DNA of 64,000 nt from an uncultured Candidatus Saccharibacteria bacterium (GTDB lineage: Bacteria > Patescibacteriota > Saccharimonadia > Saccharimonadales > Saccharimonadaceae). The translations under genes and the position numbers were made by a program. This document shows, in pieces, positions 11,067 to 18,166 of this stretch (its first letter is position 1; each line of letters opens with the position of its first letter). The notes below the pieces were generated by a model, which made no database searches, was not told the DNA's origin, and was given only the letters and a program-made list of their open reading frames with translations. The stretch lies in assembly GCA_946406315.1 (NCBI GenBank), contig CAMJKD010000004.1, positions 37,200-101,199 on the forward strand, written 5' to 3'.

Positions 11067-11807
11067 TCATTTTGAAACATCTATTTTCTGAGACTTGCCT
11101 TTTCTAAAGAAATAATAAGGCCTACTTCCGAGAATCTCCACTTTACCGTCATGAACAAAGATTGCATCTTCTTCCGGTATAGCAATTACATCCCCGACCA
11201 AATTTGAGTAATTTATAATTGAATCAGTAAAATTACGAAACCTCTTTTCATTTTCATCTTTTGATAGCTCAAGCTTATTATTTGTGTAGTGCGGGAATAT
11301 AGAAACACCGTCTAAAACATTAAAACCTTTTGTCTCTTTCAAACCCACATTATTTGGATCCATTATAGAAATGCTATTTATGTTATACCCAAATATTACA
11401 GCTCCAGCACTCGAACCAAGGATTACGCCGCCACCATCTAAATAATCTATGATTTTCGAAAATATACCGTTATCCTTTAATCCTTTTAACAGTTTATAAG
11501 TATTTCCGCCACCAATAAACAAAGCAGAATAATCATTTAATTCTTTTTCAGCCAAATCCTTAAAGCTTCTAACCATCTTTATCCCGGCGAAGGAGACTTG
11601 CGATAGCTCTTTTTTTATCCATTCATAACAACTATCATATGAATGAACGTTTTCGTCCATAGCTAAAGGAATATAAAGTAAGGGCTTATTATGATTTATG
11701 ATCTCGTTTAATTTCTGGTTAGCGTAGTAATTTTGTTCTCCAGAACCACCGCCGCACAATATCAATCTTGCGTTTGTATATCCTTTTGTAGTCTTTAAGG
11801 CACACAT
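11067..11807 (-). CDS. peptidase S51 (dipeptidase E)-like protein
   Basis: ARLILCGGGSGEQ, ALFIGGGNTYKLLKGL, GGVILGSSAGAVIFG (nucleophile elbow). ORF track starts at a TTG (11825); ATG at 11807 preferred. Confidence 0.85.
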   Translation of the reverse strand: MCALKTTKGYTNARLILCGGGSGEQNYYANQKLNEIINHNKPLLYIPLAMDENVHSYDSCYEWIKKELSQVSFAGIKMVRSFKDLAEKELNDYSALFIGGGNTYKLLKGLKDNGIFSKIIDYLDGGGVILGSSAGAVIFGYNINSISIMDPNNVGLKETKGFNVLDGVSIFPHYTNNKLELSKDENEKRFRNFTDSIINYSNLVGDVIAIPEEDAIFVHDGKVEILGSRPYYFFRKGKSQKIDVSK

Positions 11808-11860
11808 ATCTTCGTTATATATCAAAATATAGTATAATAATATCTAAATTAACAAATGTA

Positions 11861-11914
11861 ACAGGTTGGTTATGAATTTAAAGATTGGAATCTTGAATTA
11901 TTAAACTAACCTGT
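11861..11914 (+). repeat. ychF-leader-like hairpin repeat, copy 1
   Basis: acaggttggttATGAATTTAAAGATTGGAATCTTGAATTATTAAactaacctgt; arms ACAGGTTGGTT/AACTAACCTGT. Confidence 0.95.
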
Positions 11915-11915
11915 C

Positions 11916-12257
11916 TTAATTGAATAAACCTTCATCCAAAAGCGGAATAATATCGATTGCTGGCTCTTCGTAAGGATGTACTTTTCTTAACACGGAAACA
12001 ACATTTTTAACTTTCTCTACATCACAGATTACTTCCAGTTTTTCTTCATCAACATATTCTAATTTATTCGTTTCTCCAATATACGGATTTGCTTTTTTGT
12101 TTGGCCTAAATGTCCCTATCACCCTACACGAATTGGAACAAAAGTCATAGTTGCCAATCACGCCAGCGCCAGCTTCGCATACAGCATCTCTTACTACAGC
12201 AACATCACTGCTTGGTGCCGTTACGCTAATTTTAACTTTTTTAATATCGACTTTCAT
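11916..12257 (-). CDS. NIF3/YqfO PII-like domain protein
   Basis: KISVTAPSSDVAVVRDAVCEAGAGVIGNYDFCSNSCRVIGTFRPN...HPYEEPAIDIIPL; stop codon 1 nt from repeat copy 1. Confidence 0.75.
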   Translation of the reverse strand: MKVDIKKVKISVTAPSSDVAVVRDAVCEAGAGVIGNYDFCSNSCRVIGTFRPNKKANPYIGETNKLEYVDEEKLEVICDVEKVKNVVSVLRKVHPYEEPAIDIIPLLDEGLFN

Positions 12258-12520
12258 TTTTTAATCTTACTTTCCCAAATTTTTCTTACAAAACCAAGAG
12301 AAAGTGTCGAAAGAGTAAAGCCAATTACTGGTACTAGCGAAGATAGAAAAACATTAGAAACCTGTTGAATTGTAAAACTATAAATCACCACGACAATATA
12401 AGTAAGTACGCAAATACAAAATCTACGAGTCCATGAGGTTTCCCATTTTTTATCTAGCTCGACCCGTGCATTACGAGCCTTAATATTTTTAATTTCAGTC
12501 TCAATTTTTTCATTATCCAT
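12254..12520 (-). CDS. small two-TM membrane protein
   Basis: 88-aa ORF overlapping the next gene by 4 nt; two hydrophobic helices. Confidence 0.7.
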   Translation of the reverse strand: MDNEKIETEIKNIKARNARVELDKKWETSWTRRFCICVLTYIVVVIYSFTIQQVSNVFLSSLVPVIGFTLSTLSLGFVRKIWESKIKK

Positions 12521-12575
12521 ACCTTATATTGTATAATAAATTATGTTATAATATATACCTATAATAATAGATATT

Positions 12576-12629
12576 GCAGGTTGGTTATGAATTTAAAGAT
12601 TGGAATCTTGAATTTTTAAACCAACCTGT
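12576..12629 (+). repeat. ychF-leader-like hairpin repeat, copy 2
   Basis: gcaggttggttATGAATTTAAAGATTGGAATCTTGAATTTTTAAaccaacctgt. Confidence 0.95.
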
Positions 12630-12640
12630 TTAAATATTCT

Positions 12641-13795
12641 TTACTCATGTAAATCGTTACTCTTTAATAAATAATAATCACTAGGCAGTATTCTTTTACA
12701 TTCGCCATCAGGCTCTTTAGCTAACTCCTCGAAGCGACCATTATATTTAGCTTTTATCTTATCTAGAGGAAGAATTCTCTTGTCTTTTAAATAGGTTTCT
12801 CCATCTCTCGTAGAATAATATAACATACATACTAATTCATTCTTTTTCTCGCTATCGATGACATTCAGAAGGGTATTATATGCGCGATCAAAGCTACTAG
12901 TAACTAAATAATCCTTTATCAAATCATAGTTATTGTTATATTGTTTTGGGTTTTCAGGGTTAGTAGCAAAATCCAAAATATCTTCATTGCCTTCTAATAG
13001 CGAGTTAATACAGACATCTAAATTGTTTAAAACAAAATTCTCAATATCTCTTGCTTGTAACATATCAGTCTCGCTCATCTTACTGCGTCCAGAATTTGTC
13101 TCGTCGTTTTTGTGAGAAACAAGTTCTAGTTGTTCCTTCATTTCGGACAAAATTACAAAATCCATTAAGCTATTTTTTTCTTCCGAAAGATTGTTTGAGT
13201 CCACAGCGATGCAAAATCGGAAAATATCAAAAGGTTTAATCGCTTGGTTATCTACGGTTAAGTATTCCAACTTAGACATCCCGAATGGTTTGTCAGAAGA
13301 AATGTCATTCGATGATAAATGAATTTTTTTCTGGATAGTTGATAATTTATGCGATACAGTAACATCAATGCCGAATGGTAGTAAGTTATTATTTTCGTCA
13401 TTGATAAAAATTGCTGAATCGATGCGATTATTTTGGTCGTCAAATACATTTGCATCTGATGCCGTGACGACAGGCGCATCTTCATACAGAGAAAAAGCTC
13501 TTTGTAAAAATATTTCTGGTACTACCTTTTCGGCAACGGCAGAAGCATTTGTCTCGTTCTTTTCTCCAAATTTTATTACTTGGTTTTCAACTCTACTTAA
13601 ATCGTCTTTCACTTTTTCTTCGGAATAAATACCTTGCTCGCAAAAAAGTCTAGCAACTTTACCAAACTCATTGATAACCCGTTGTTTCTTTTCGGTTAAC
13701 ATGTGATCATTGGTTTGTTCGCCTCTTGCAGACTCGTTACTATCTGGATAATTATTCGCTTCTGCTTTGAAACTACCCTTAATATTTATTCCCAT
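12641..13795 (-). CDS. hypothetical protein
   Basis: 384-aa ORF, ends 12 nt from repeat copy 2; no domain recognised. Confidence 0.7.
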   Translation of the reverse strand: MGINIKGSFKAEANNYPDSNESARGEQTNDHMLTEKKQRVINEFGKVARLFCEQGIYSEEKVKDDLSRVENQVIKFGEKNETNASAVAEKVVPEIFLQRAFSLYEDAPVVTASDANVFDDQNNRIDSAIFINDENNNLLPFGIDVTVSHKLSTIQKKIHLSSNDISSDKPFGMSKLEYLTVDNQAIKPFDIFRFCIAVDSNNLSEEKNSLMDFVILSEMKEQLELVSHKNDETNSGRSKMSETDMLQARDIENFVLNNLDVCINSLLEGNEDILDFATNPENPKQYNNNYDLIKDYLVTSSFDRAYNTLLNVIDSEKKNELVCMLYYSTRDGETYLKDKRILPLDKIKAKYNGRFEELAKEPDGECKRILPSDYYLLKSNDLHE

Positions 13796-13895
13796 AATAG
13801 TTTTAAATAGATAATTATATTATATATCAACCTGGTTAGGATTTATAGTGATGAGCATGCGTGGTCCTAAGTTTTTCTTGTGCCATAATGATACC

Positions 13896-14480
13896 ATGAA
13901 TAAAATATACTTAGTCCACTGTTGGGATGGAACAAAAGACGATGGATGGTATCCTTGGCTTGAAGAAAAAATAAACAATTCAGACAACAAACTCATTAGG
14001 TTTGATATGCCTAATACTGCTAATCCAAAAATCGAAGAATGGGTATCAGAGTTAGACAAACAAGTAGATAATCTGGATGAACGTACGCTCTTTGTTGGCC
14101 ATAGTATTGGCTGTCAAACAATCATGAGATATCTTGAAAAATGCGATGTAAAAAGAATTGGTGGTTTGTTATTTGTTGCGCCTTGGCTAGATTTACTTCC
14201 GGAAGCGACCAGCGACGAAGACTCCCGTAATACTGCTGAGCCTTGGCTAAAAACGTCTATCGACTTTAATAAAGTTAAACACTTCACGGACAACATTACT
14301 TGCATTTTTTCTGACGATGATTATTTTGTTTCGTTAAATCAAGAACAAAAATTCAAAGAACTGTTAAATGCTAAAACGATAATCGTAAAAAATAAAGGTC
14401 ATATCAGCGCAGACGATGGTGTGAATGAATTAAATGAAATTTACGACGCGCTATCAGAACTATTAACAGGGAATAATTAA
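13896..14480 (+). CDS. RBBP9/YdeN-type serine hydrolase
   Basis: MNKIYLVHCWDGTKDDGWYPWLEEKI...LFVGHSIGCQTIMRYL...LLFVAPWL; first ATG with upstream CATAAT used. Confidence 0.85.
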   Translation: MNKIYLVHCWDGTKDDGWYPWLEEKINNSDNKLIRFDMPNTANPKIEEWVSELDKQVDNLDERTLFVGHSIGCQTIMRYLEKCDVKRIGGLLFVAPWLDLLPEATSDEDSRNTAEPWLKTSIDFNKVKHFTDNITCIFSDDDYFVSLNQEQKFKELLNAKTIIVKNKGHISADDGVNELNEIYDALSELLTGNN

Positions 14481-14848
14481 GCGAAGTAATTTGTATCAGG
14501 GTTTCTATCGATTAAGTCGAAAGCCGTTTTCATTTTTTCTGGAGTATTAATGTATATAATTTTATATTTGCCAGAAGTTGTTTCGTTTATATAATCGTGT
14601 TTAATTTCAATTACATGTATTTGACCCCAATATAGCCATTTGCCGTCAATATTTTCCACTAAAAAATTTCTAACTGGCGGACGATGAAAAACTCTTATGC
14701 CAGGCTTATCTCGAAATTCAAAAATAACATCTTTAAAATCTTCGGCCGTAAATGGCTTCTCGACATGCTCTTCGTATTTTAGTTGAGCAGGGAAACCTTG
14801 ATCTTTTGATATTTGTAATGTGTCATTTACTTCTATATGGGAACCCAT
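14477..14848 (-). CDS. hypothetical protein
   Basis: 123-aa ORF convergent/overlapping with 13896-14480. Confidence 0.65.
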   Translation of the reverse strand: MGSHIEVNDTLQISKDQGFPAQLKYEEHVEKPFTAEDFKDVIFEFRDKPGIRVFHRPPVRNFLVENIDGKWLYWGQIHVIEIKHDYINETTSGKYKIIYINTPEKMKTAFDLIDRNPDTNYFA

Positions 14849-14912
14849 GTAATTCTCTTTTGATTAATTGTATGTCAAAATGTGTTATAATTACATCTAT
14901 AATAACAGATAT

Positions 14913-14966
14913 ACAGGTTGTTTATGAATTTAAAGATAGGAATCTTAAATTTTTAAGCCAACCTAC
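14913..14966 (+). repeat. ychF-leader-like hairpin repeat, copy 3
   Basis: acaggttgtttATGAATTTAAAGATAGGAATCTTAAATTTTTAAgccaacctac. Confidence 0.95.
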
Positions 14967-15596
14967 CTAGCAAACGACATTTTCGCCAAAACCCAAATCT
15001 CTATATTCTGCACTTGCTTTATCGCAAGCCCCTTTCATCCAACTATCGCTAATTGATTTACCCAAATCAGACAACAATGCATCATGCACTGGTATTACTA
15101 TCTGAGGCTTAACTCTGTCGACGAAGTCCATAGATTCTGCAATCTTTAACCAAGGCGCCGAAATAGGAACAAACAAAACCTTGGCGCCAACATTAGAATA
15201 ATCAAAAGAATCGCCGGGATTCACAATACTACCGTTTACCATTACTCCAATATTTTCACACGGTATTTGTCCAGGAATTATTGTAGCGTGATTCTTACCA
15301 AAGAAATCCAACTTGAACCCACTAATCTTGCACGTCTCTCCGCCTTTCACGATAATGGGATCCTCAATAAACGAAGCAGCATCGTTAGTCGTTATAATCT
15401 TCGCATCAGGATTATTGCGTATTATTCTTTTGATAACTTCAATCTGCAAATGATCACTATGTTTATGCGTAATAATAACAGCAACAACATTATTCAGTCT
15501 TGGTATCGTTTTATTGAATTCGACAGGATCGAAGACGATTCTTTTTCCATCTTTTTCAATCACTATGCCAGAATGCTCTAGCTTCGTTATTTCCAT
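14967..15596 (-). CDS. MBL-fold metallohydrolase (UlaG-like)
   Basis: VAVIITHKHSDHLQ, IVNPGDSF, VIPVHDALLSD; stop codon directly abuts repeat copy 3. Confidence 0.85.
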   Translation of the reverse strand: MEITKLEHSGIVIEKDGKRIVFDPVEFNKTIPRLNNVVAVIITHKHSDHLQIEVIKRIIRNNPDAKIITTNDAASFIEDPIIVKGGETCKISGFKLDFFGKNHATIIPGQIPCENIGVMVNGSIVNPGDSFDYSNVGAKVLFVPISAPWLKIAESMDFVDRVKPQIVIPVHDALLSDLGKSISDSWMKGACDKASAEYRDLGFGENVVC

Positions 15597-15649
15597 AGCT
15601 TATATTATATATCAAAATATGTTATAATTTTATCCACAATAACAGATAC

Positions 15650-15703
15650 GCGGGTTGGTTATGAGTTTAAAAATCGGAATCTTGTATTTCTAAACCAATC
15701 TAT
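15650..15703 (+). repeat. ychF-leader-like hairpin repeat, copy 4
   Basis: gcgggttggttATGAGTTTAAAAATCGGAATCTTGTATTTCTAAaccaatctat. Confidence 0.93.
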
Positions 15704-15741
15704 TCCTCTCATCTAATATCTATCCAGAATACAGCCATCGA

Positions 15742-16443
15742 TTATTTAACTAAGAAATTATTCAGTTCGTCATAAAAAGCAGCATTATTAATAATATAAT
15801 TACAATGTCCCGCTTTTTCCAATATGACTAGTTTTGAATCTTTAATATTACTAGAAATAAATTCGGCCTCATTTATCGGAACTACATCTTTAGCCCCTCC
15901 ATTAAAAACTAAGGTTGGAACACTGATAATTTTTAACTCTTCCTTAGCCATAGAATGAGACTCGTTCATTAGCTTTTCGAACTTCTCATTATTCTTTTTG
16001 CCAGGATACCAAGGCAATTTCTCCATAATTTTGGCATAAGTGGGCTTTTTAATGGTATTATTCCTCGCGACACTGCTGCATAATATTAACTTCGATACGC
16101 TTTCTGGATATCTAACAGCTACATTGAGCGCGACTGTTCCTCCTCCACTTAATCCCAATAGGAAAGGCTTATTTATATTTAGCTTTTCAATAAACTCATA
16201 CACATCCTTTGCGGATTCTTCATATGTCAGCGAACACTTCTTTTCGCTTTTGCCGCAACATCTTCTATCAAAAATATATACCATATACTTATTTTTTAAT
16301 CTATTTGCGATAATTTTCATCATCCCAGTATTTACACTATTTGGATTCAGCAGAATAATAGGTTTCCCTTCGCCTAGAACTTCGTAATGAATTTTTATTT
16401 TATTCACATTTACATACATACCAATACCAACATTATATACCAA
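15742..16443 (-). CDS. alpha/beta hydrolase
   Basis: GEGKPIILLNPNSVN, FDRRCCGKSEK, LLGLSGGGTVALNVA, GHCNYIINN. Confidence 0.9.
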   Translation of the reverse strand: MVYNVGIGMYVNVNKIKIHYEVLGEGKPIILLNPNSVNTGMMKIIANRLKNKYMVYIFDRRCCGKSEKKCSLTYEESAKDVYEFIEKLNINKPFLLGLSGGGTVALNVAVRYPESVSKLILCSSVARNNTIKKPTYAKIMEKLPWYPGKKNNEKFEKLMNESHSMAKEELKIISVPTLVFNGGAKDVVPINEAEFISSNIKDSKLVILEKAGHCNYIINNAAFYDELNNFLVK

Positions 16444-16477
16444 AATATGATATAATTATACCCATAATAACAGATAG

Positions 16478-16531
16478 AAAGGTTGGTTTTGAACTTAAAG
16501 ATTGGAATCTTGAATTTTTAAACCAACCTAG
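16478..16531 (+). repeat. ychF-leader-like hairpin repeat, copy 5
   Basis: aaaggttggttTTGAACTTAAAGATTGGAATCTTGAATTTTTAAaccaacctag. Confidence 0.95.
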
Positions 16532-16617
16532 TTTTTATATTACATTTCCTATTAAAGTTCACTCGTCAAAACCAGAATGAAAAACCACAAAATTCTCTAC
16601 ATGATATAATAATATAA

Positions 16618-17094
16618 ATGCAACGACTCACAAAAAGATTCATAGTCAAAAACATAGATAGCTTAAACTTAAGCAATCCTATCATATACGAAAGATTCTA
16701 TCTTCCAGACCAAACTGTTATCCAAAGAAAACAAGATGCTTATACAAAAGGAACTCTAACTAGCGTCGGCATCATTAACCAAACTCTAATATCTCAAACA
16801 GAATTCGAAAAATTAAAACAATCAGCAAACAATAGTATTACTAGAAAAAGCTATCTATATCTAGATGACAACAGAGTATCTATAAAGGAGTACCAGGGTA
16901 ACCTTGAAGGGTTTATCCGTGCGGAAGTAGAATTTAAAACTAAAAGCGAAATGGAAGACTACCACAAAGAATCTTGGATGAGGCAAGATATAACCGCAAC
17001 CCCACTTGCATTTGATAGCCTGTTAAGCGCGCTAAACAAAGATGAGCTTTCAAAAATATTGAAAGAATATAATATAATAACAGATAAGAATTAA
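16618..17094 (+). CDS. CYTH-domain (triphosphate tunnel) protein
   Basis: VSIKEYQGNLEGFIRAEVEFKTKSEMEDY...WMRQDITATPLAFDSLLS matches the CYTH C-terminal pattern. Confidence 0.75.
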   Translation: MQRLTKRFIVKNIDSLNLSNPIIYERFYLPDQTVIQRKQDAYTKGTLTSVGIINQTLISQTEFEKLKQSANNSITRKSYLYLDDNRVSIKEYQGNLEGFIRAEVEFKTKSEMEDYHKESWMRQDITATPLAFDSLLSALNKDELSKILKEYNIITDKN

Positions 17095-17101
17095 CGAAAG
17101 G

Positions 17102-18166
17102 TTGGTTATTAATATAAAGATCGGAATCGTAGGTTTGGCAAATGTGGGGAAGAGCACGCTTTTTAATGCCTTGACGAATGCGGGTGCTTTGGCGGCGAAT
17201 TATCCTTTTGCAACAATTGAGCCGAATACTGGCATTGTTGGCGTTCCAGATGAGCGGATCGGCGTATTGGCAAAGATGTATGAATCCGAAAAGATAGTGC
17301 CAGCGACGGTTGAATTTGTTGATATTGCCGGTTTGATTGCTGGCGCCTCTAAGGGGGAGGGGCTAGGCAATAAATTCTTGGCGAATATACGCGAATGCGA
17401 AGTGATATGCCATGTCGTAAGAGCATTTGAAGATACAAATGTGACACATATAGCCGGCGGTCCAGATCCGAAGCGAGATATTGATACGGTTGAGACGGAG
17501 TTAGCTTTGGCGGATATTGAAACATTGGAGAAATCTCTGCCTAAGATGCAAAAAGAGATGCGCGGCGGCAGTAGAGAAGCAGGGCAGCGAGTTGAGCAGG
17601 CGGCAAAAGCGCTTGAGCAATTAGAGAAGGGCATGACGCATATTGAGCCAGTTGACGGGCTGGACTTGTTATCGGCGAAGCCGGTCTTCTTTATGTTTAA
17701 TATGGACGAAAATGAGCTTGCGGATGAAAAAAAGCGAGCAGAATTGGCTAACTTGGTAGCGCCGCGGAAGTGTGTGTTTGTTAATGCGAAACTTGAATCC
17801 GAGATGGTTGATATGGAGCCGGAAGAGAAGAGAGAATTTTTAGAGAGTTATGGAGTAGCCGAAGATGGATTAAGCCAACTAGTGCGTGTAGCCTATGATA
17901 CTTTAGGGTTGCAAAGTTTTTTGACGGCGGGGAAAAAAGAAACGCGTGCTTGGACGATAAAGAAGGGTGCAACGGCGCCAGAGGCGGCAGGGGTGATTCA
18001 CACGGATTTTCAGAGAGGTTTTATAGCGGCGTCGATTTGCTCTTATGGCGATTTAGTACGTTTAGGGTCGGAGAAAGCTGTGCGCGAAGCGGGGTTAATG
18101 CGAACGGAAGGCAAAGACTACATAATGCAGGACGGCGATGTAGTTGAATTCAAATTTAACGTCTAG
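17102..18166 (+). CDS. ychF: redox-regulated ATPase YchF
   Basis: IKIGIVGLANVGKSTLFNALTNAGALAANYPFATIEPNTG; start is TTG (17102) or ATT (17108). Confidence 0.95.
   Translation: MVINIKIGIVGLANVGKSTLFNALTNAGALAANYPFATIEPNTGIVGVPDERIGVLAKMYESEKIVPATVEFVDIAGLIAGASKGEGLGNKFLANIRECEVICHVVRAFEDTNVTHIAGGPDPKRDIDTVETELALADIETLEKSLPKMQKEMRGGSREAGQRVEQAAKALEQLEKGMTHIEPVDGLDLLSAKPVFFMFNMDENELADEKKRAELANLVAPRKCVFVNAKLESEMVDMEPEEKREFLESYGVAEDGLSQLVRVAYDTLGLQSFLTAGKKETRAWTIKKGATAPEAAGVIHTDFQRGFIAASICSYGDLVRLGSEKAVREAGLMRTEGKDYIMQDGDVVEFKFNV

Follow-up and report, generated by a model that had tools for sequence, protein, structure and literature searches.

We analysed a 64,000-nucleotide window from the genome of a Candidatus Saccharibacteria bacterium (G000; 1.07 Mb in 26 contigs), in which five copies of a ~50-bp imperfect inverted repeat, all on the plus strand between 11863 and 16529, lie upstream of ychF, the gene of an Obg-type GTPase. 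The repeat is the divider between cassettes, and the locus is probably a stack of cassettes at the 5' end of ychF that carry no large serine recombinase (LSR) and are mobilised in trans by ychF-targeting LSRs. The sequence-only reading of this DNA had described the repeat as an almost full-length hairpin and overlooked both this role and the identity of its left half with the 5' end of ychF (17097-17128). Apart from that half copy, the sixth, at the start of ychF, the repeat is confined to this one locus in the genome; for its 28-nt core with three mismatches allowed, the chance expectation from shuffles was 0.00. P and P' denote the left and right arms of the site and B' the ychF side. The junctions and the target gene are as follows.

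11863-11912, plus strand: cassette junction 1 (P-P'), 50-bp imperfect dyad, crossover GG at 11887-11888
12578-12627, plus strand: cassette junction 2 (P-P'), crossover GG at 12602-12603
14915-14964, plus strand: cassette junction 3 (P-P'), crossover GG at 14939-14940
15652-15701, plus strand: cassette junction 4 (P-P'), the poorest hairpin, crossover GG at 15676-15677
16480-16529, plus strand: cassette junction 5 (P-P'), crossover GG at 16504-16505
17040-17128, plus strand: cassette right-end module at ychF, attR-like P-B', crossover GG at 17123-17124
17102-18166, plus strand: ychF, Obg-type GTPase, target gene

The left half of the repeat (TATAAT...AACAGATA...AGGTTGGTTATGAATTTAAAGATYGG) is the 5' end of ychF, with promoter, leader and first codons, and the right half, AATCTTGAATTTYTAAACCAACCT, is non-ychF sequence with which a cassette starts. 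The micro-ORF MNLKIGILNF*, put forward earlier as a possible coding constraint on the repeat, therefore does hold the first codons of ychF, and then runs on into the foreign DNA of a cassette arm. The right-end module has the order -10 TATAAT, AACAGATA, the AGGTTGGTT arm and the first codons of ychF, so that each cassette supplies a new promoter and start to the gene. Because the usual ATG of ychF reads ATT in this genome (17102-17128), translation probably begins at a TTG that lies within the arm supplied by the cassette, or else at a non-standard codon.

The 28-nt core was searched for in 394 genomes of the family and was found in 64 of them, from 2 of the 61 genera; an order-wide search again returned only those two genera. 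In these gut Saccharibacteria nearly all arrays lie directly upstream of ychF and in its orientation; those with no ychF beside them are for the most part on short contigs or at contig ends, plus one off-target cassette in G144. Arrays reach up to five cassettes. The cassettes examined numbered 106 and came from these arrays and from named Saccharibacteria metagenome-assembled genomes (MAGs), with three loci duplicating named MAGs. Median cassette length was 995 bp, 72 of the 106 held a single open reading frame (ORF) of at least 70 aa, and the largest ORF was antiparallel to ychF in 79 (binomial p 4e-7).

Copies 1, 2, 3 and 5 fold much more stably than shuffles, both as RNA (z -3.8 to -6.5) and on the DNA bottom strand (z -3.9 to -5.7), and copy 4 barely so (RNA z -1.8, DNA z -0.6); the half copy at ychF folded no better than shuffles (z +0.55). 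The proposed wobble-preserving variation was not confirmed, as the arms pair no better than with shuffled partners and show no covariation, either over 40 array sites (704 pairings versus 710.0 expected) or over 99 cassette-end pairs (1746 versus 1757.6). The two C-to-T changes in the window do give G-U pairs on one strand, and on the opposite strand they become A-C mismatches. Extrahelical A residues are not conserved, since the best register is free of bulges and symmetric about a central GG, with constant mismatches. Because the arms do not covary, the hairpin is a by-product of the dyad and not itself the conserved object.

The crossover was mapped by comparing base composition between 109 cassette junctions and 65 ychF junctions. 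Composition is equal at position -7 and differs at -4 and -1, which places the exchange between -7 and -4, at GG, the exact centre of the dyad. Composition over the 109 sites and the comparison with an empty site (below) agree on a 2-bp crossover without gain or loss of bases. Pairing falls into an inner block (positions 1-12) and an outer block of 9 bp (15-23), separated by constant mismatches, and the outer block, AGGTTGGTT/AACCAACCT at k15-23 from GG, is conserved. In a published structure of a serine integrase bound to attP, positions 16-24 of the 25-bp half-site hold the 9-bp motif of the zinc domain (PMC3783163); the ~50-bp dyad described here likewise has 9-bp outer motifs in 25-bp half-sites. 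On the 2-bp crossover, the 50-bp imperfect dyad, the outer 9-bp motifs and the lack of covariation, the anatomy of the site is, judged from its sequence, that of the double-stranded attP of an LSR.

The repeat had earlier been likened to the attC sites of integrons. The likeness was apt for a recombination site in an integron-like cassette array, but not for the bulged, folded single-strand mechanism, and the earlier remark that the attC core is absent was borne out, as inspection by eye of both strands of the consensus showed no R-box (RYYYAAC/GTTRRRY). Integrons, and clusters of attC sites lacking integron-integrases (CALINs), also consist of single-gene cassettes with one recombination site each, arrayed at one chromosomal place and shared between species, and the arrays at ychF, as in a CALIN, usually have no recombinase beside them. 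Recombination of attC type by a tyrosine integrase could thus be proposed from the imperfect hairpins at the junctions and from a cargo whose variety resembles that of integrons. Exchange at the hairpin tip instead of the stem base, the double-stranded dyad without covariation and the missing attC boxes make it extremely improbable, as do the recombinases present: the arrays are without IntI, the sole tyrosine recombinase of G000 (PF00589) scores as Xer-like (TIGR02249 132.8 versus the 265-bit integron-integrase cut-off), and three array genomes have no PF00589 match at all. Unlike integron cassettes, moreover, those at ychF bring their own promoters and carry cargo mostly opposite to the target gene.

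Four sets of comparisons (empty ychF sites, differing sister genomes, sharing between genera and an off-target insertion with its empty sites) show that the cassettes move site-specifically. The uninterrupted native start of ychF, AACAGATATGAATTTAAAGATYGGNATYGTNGG, was found in array-less genomes of the second genus (14 of 118 sampled), and matched with two mismatches in one array genome. Among upstream-most sites, 18 of 61 have no GGTTGG outer arm, and many show native sequence directly before P'. The sisters G340 and G322 are 95% identical over 1300 bp of upstream flank and 89-90% downstream, and their cassettes are unrelated apart from the end modules. The DNA identity of cassettes common to both genera is 93% across 513 of 523 bp, 92% across 540 bp and 88% across 390 bp; the ychF proteins of the two genera are ~62% identical. 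Lastly, a 921-bp cassette of G144 lies at a place other than ychF. The matching empty site is intact in G165 and G258 (TTAAGATTGGGGTCATC; in a longer stretch ...TTTTTTAAGATTGGGGTCATCAG...), and is split in G144 into ...AAGATTGG/AGTCTTGAATTTC and GCAGATAGG/GGTCATCAG..., with GG as the only contiguous identity of both partners at the crossover. G334 and G379 were also considered as a gain/loss pair and were dropped, because a 100% identical flank with different ychF genes may reflect misassembly.

The 2-bp overlap of the off-target insertion bears on whether the cassettes exploit the housekeeping Xer recombinase, as integrative mobile elements exploiting Xer (IMEX) do. Most array genomes do hold exactly one tyrosine recombinase, Xer. 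Xer-type enzymes need an overlap of ~6 bp, array-less genomes have Xer just the same, and the 50-bp site is one that we take to be unlike dif; LSR elements also share the cassette arms (below). No dedicated tyrosine integrase tracking the arrays was found, and a part for Xer is very unlikely.

LSRs are common, and the elements of one family share target, arms and junction with the cassettes. G286 encodes a 567-aa LSR (P0002) with Resolvase, Recombinase and zinc-ribbon domains, whose gene ends inside the ychF start within a 7.1-kb element; the left junction of this element is the native ychF start followed by TTGAATTTTTAAACCAACAT, and the right junction is ATGTTGGTTATGAAATTACAGATAGG followed by ychF. 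A similarly built element of 9.6 kb is present in G266, and both elements bear P' arms of the cassette type. Homologues of P0002 (E <= 1e-60) occur in 10 of the 394 genomes, from five genera, and all ten lie directly before ychF, as do gene fragments in L039 and L043. An LSR gene thus stands beside the att site in the autonomous elements (L165, L257 and eight more), and in neither the cassettes nor G000. The element of G286 also carries an LlaMI-type restriction enzyme and a C5 methyltransferase (L165:10237-12038), and its AAA_25 protein was seen by eye in the G017 element too. The most frequent LSR group of the array genomes was rejected as the ychF enzyme, since it mostly ends against tRNA genes. 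A second LSR family (L235-L242), with identities of up to 98% among species of the second genus, mostly abuts tRNA genes and makes up a separate set of integrative elements. No ychF-type LSR and, with two patterns, no copy of the site was found in IMG/VR viral contigs; phage and plasmid LSRs are only ~30% identical.

The sequence just inside P' links cassettes and LSR elements further. Read in the frame of the LSR C-terminus it is open and conserved in many cassettes (NLEFLNQPxSFIPFSxKIxLPKPKWK), and in the two g2 LSR elements examined this tail continues the LSR frame. Over 31 cassettes dN/dS of the tail is ~0.27 in the LSR frame versus 0.93 and 1.35 in the other frames, so the shortened tails are under apparent purifying selection. 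The frame runs through attP at L165:9767-9934 and 15220-16923, in L257 and at the left ends of cassettes in many loci, and in L117 the tail that overlaps attP is joined in frame to a CdiA-C-like protein. On the simple reading, the cassettes would descend from LSR elements that lost their middle. In the circular form the LSR would read through attP and gain a tail of 45-57 aa (LEFLNQ..IPF..PKPDHG..), which integration would cut off and replace with a few ychF-derived residues.

In the mechanism that we propose, each cassette is a non-autonomous integrative element whose circle would carry one 50-bp attP (P-P', the 'hairpin'). An LSR of the ychF-targeting family (P0002 and relatives), encoded on a larger element and acting in trans, would insert it by a single crossover at the central GG. 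On this account the old promoter and start of ychF, with P', are left upstream, and the promoter, outer arm and first codons of the cassette (P) are joined to the body of ychF (B'), so that ychF stays expressed. The sequences show the ychF target, the build of the junctions, the crossover at GG, the mobility and the arms in common with LSR elements. Action in trans, the circular intermediate and the acceptance of further cassettes by a P-B' site already used are inferred. That site may still serve as attB, its inner half-site being the same; alternatively, cassettes may fuse before insertion.

Several points weigh against this account. The genome studied here has no ychF-type LSR, and G286 is the only one in which such an LSR and a site were both detected. 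Recombination of attP with attR or attL is normally not carried out by serine integrases unless an extra factor is present (PMC3783163), so that the model does not account for array growth at an occupied site. The outer motif of attB has been published as shifted ~5 bp inward; in the ychF half the ACCAA outer motif is shifted by 4 bp instead and lies within conserved coding sequence, which makes it weak evidence. Most of the genomes are MAGs, in which repeats can cause misassembly, as the pair G334/G379 illustrates, and homologous recombination through the conserved end modules could partly spread cassettes. Taken further, this last point becomes an alternative in which no recombinase is active now, LSR events are ancient, and spread is mainly by transformation and homologous recombination via the end modules. 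Conservation of those modules (~80 bp right, 100 bp left) fits such a history, as does the absence of a ychF-type LSR from nearly all array genomes. The clean insertion at a non-homologous site in G144, with two near-identical relatives empty, argues the other way, and we consider the alternative unlikely.

The repeat could also be an RNA element that regulates genes, such as a leader peptide or a hairpin serving as terminator or leader. Its RNA hairpin is stable, a promoter lies just upstream, and the 3' side is T-rich in 72 of 109 copies versus 7% in the background; that stretch is, however, partly the coding tail. No match was found in Rfam, and promoter and terminator scans gave nothing above shuffles, the terminator scan leaving the sites uncalled. 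With covariation absent as well, and with the ychF junctions and mobility left without explanation, regulation as the main function of the repeat is scarcely credible. It may have a secondary role in terminating transcription from the orphaned ychF promoter.

In mechanism, cassettes moved by an LSR in trans come nearest to LSR cassette chromosomes such as the staphylococcal cassette chromosome (SCC), on a much smaller scale; the system is integron-like in outcome and outside the integron family. SCC and its enterococcal counterpart (ECC), with CcrA/CcrB or CcrC as LSRs, likewise insert at one end of a conserved gene without loss of its function, and form tandem composite islands. SCC elements without ccr exist (pseudo-SCC; PMC4723332), and the att sites of ECC are conserved 50-bp sequences (PMC6222049). 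Unlike these, the cassettes target the 5' end of their gene, ychF, and give it new promoter and start codons; they are ~1 kb units of 1-2 genes without a recombinase, in arrays of up to five. The target is ychF and not rlmH or the ECC-specific one, and P0002 was not directly compared with the Ccr family. Phages and integrative mobilisable elements with LSRs, with their satellites and cis-mobilisable elements, resemble the system in an attP/attB pair with a central dinucleotide, an integrase beside the att site and accretion, in which non-autonomous elements bearing the same att sites accumulate. The units at ychF differ in being regular, of gene-cassette size and present in many species, and in being far commoner than the autonomous element (64 versus 10 of 394 genomes). 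A pneumococcal prophage group, PPH005, integrates between the DUF951 gene and ychF, and a defective prophage at pneumococcal ychF is reported to switch ychF (PMC8637289); the 5' side of ychF may be a recurrent integration target.

The cargo was assessed on 128 cassette proteins, of which 17 match the CdiA C-terminal domain and 8 NUDIX, with methyltransferases, GNAT, MazF, MazG and others besides. The CdiA C-terminal (contact-dependent inhibition) proteins are possible weapons or immunity genes of these episymbionts. The 25 leading Pfam families included no recombinase, and LSR proteins used as BLAST queries gave no match to ordinary cassettes. The last unit of G385 (L173:2337-8413) is unusually large at 6 kb; its genes, judged from sequence only, are peptidase S51-like, aminoacyl-tRNA-synthetase-like (two) and radical-SAM-like (two).

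The array in the window consists of five cassettes of 0.6-2.3 kb; each holds between one and three genes, most of which are on the minus strand.

11889-12603: cassette 1, 715 bp, two minus-strand ORFs (one weakly CutA-like, one small); its left 390 bp match a cassette from another genus (L169) at 88% identity
12604-14940: cassette 2, 2337 bp, minus-strand ORF of 384 aa (no family), plus-strand serine hydrolase (PF06821) and minus-strand ORF of 123 aa
14941-15677: cassette 3, 737 bp, minus-strand metallo-beta-lactamase-fold hydrolase (PF13483); shares 92% identity with the sole cassette of the relative G144 (L121)
15678-16505: cassette 4, 828 bp, minus-strand alpha/beta hydrolase (PF00561)
16506-17124: cassette 5, 619 bp, plus-strand ORF of 158 aa (no family)
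11067-11825, minus strand: peptidase S51 gene, just upstream of junction 1

The peptidase S51 gene may be a sixth, older cassette with a decayed outer site; the putative site beyond it is equalled in score by 68 of 1459 random windows.

No account of such arrays was found in the open literature, many subscription papers lying outside the search. We lean towards regarding the system as an integron-analogous, LSR-based form of gene capture, in which single-gene cassettes without a recombinase are mobilised in trans and arrayed at the gene of a housekeeping GTPase, each renewing its promoter and start codon; the Candidate Phyla Radiation would then have its first system of this kind.

Saccharibacteria have small genomes and live as symbionts of other bacteria, and to our knowledge little is known of their gene exchange. 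With a marked and searchable site, many of their exchangeable genes could be listed. The ychF-specific LSRs come with att sites defined by nature, and tandem accretion of LSR elements becomes testable, despite the view that attP x attR is blocked (PMC3783163). If the account holds, gene-cassette arrays arose with a second, unrelated class of recombinase.

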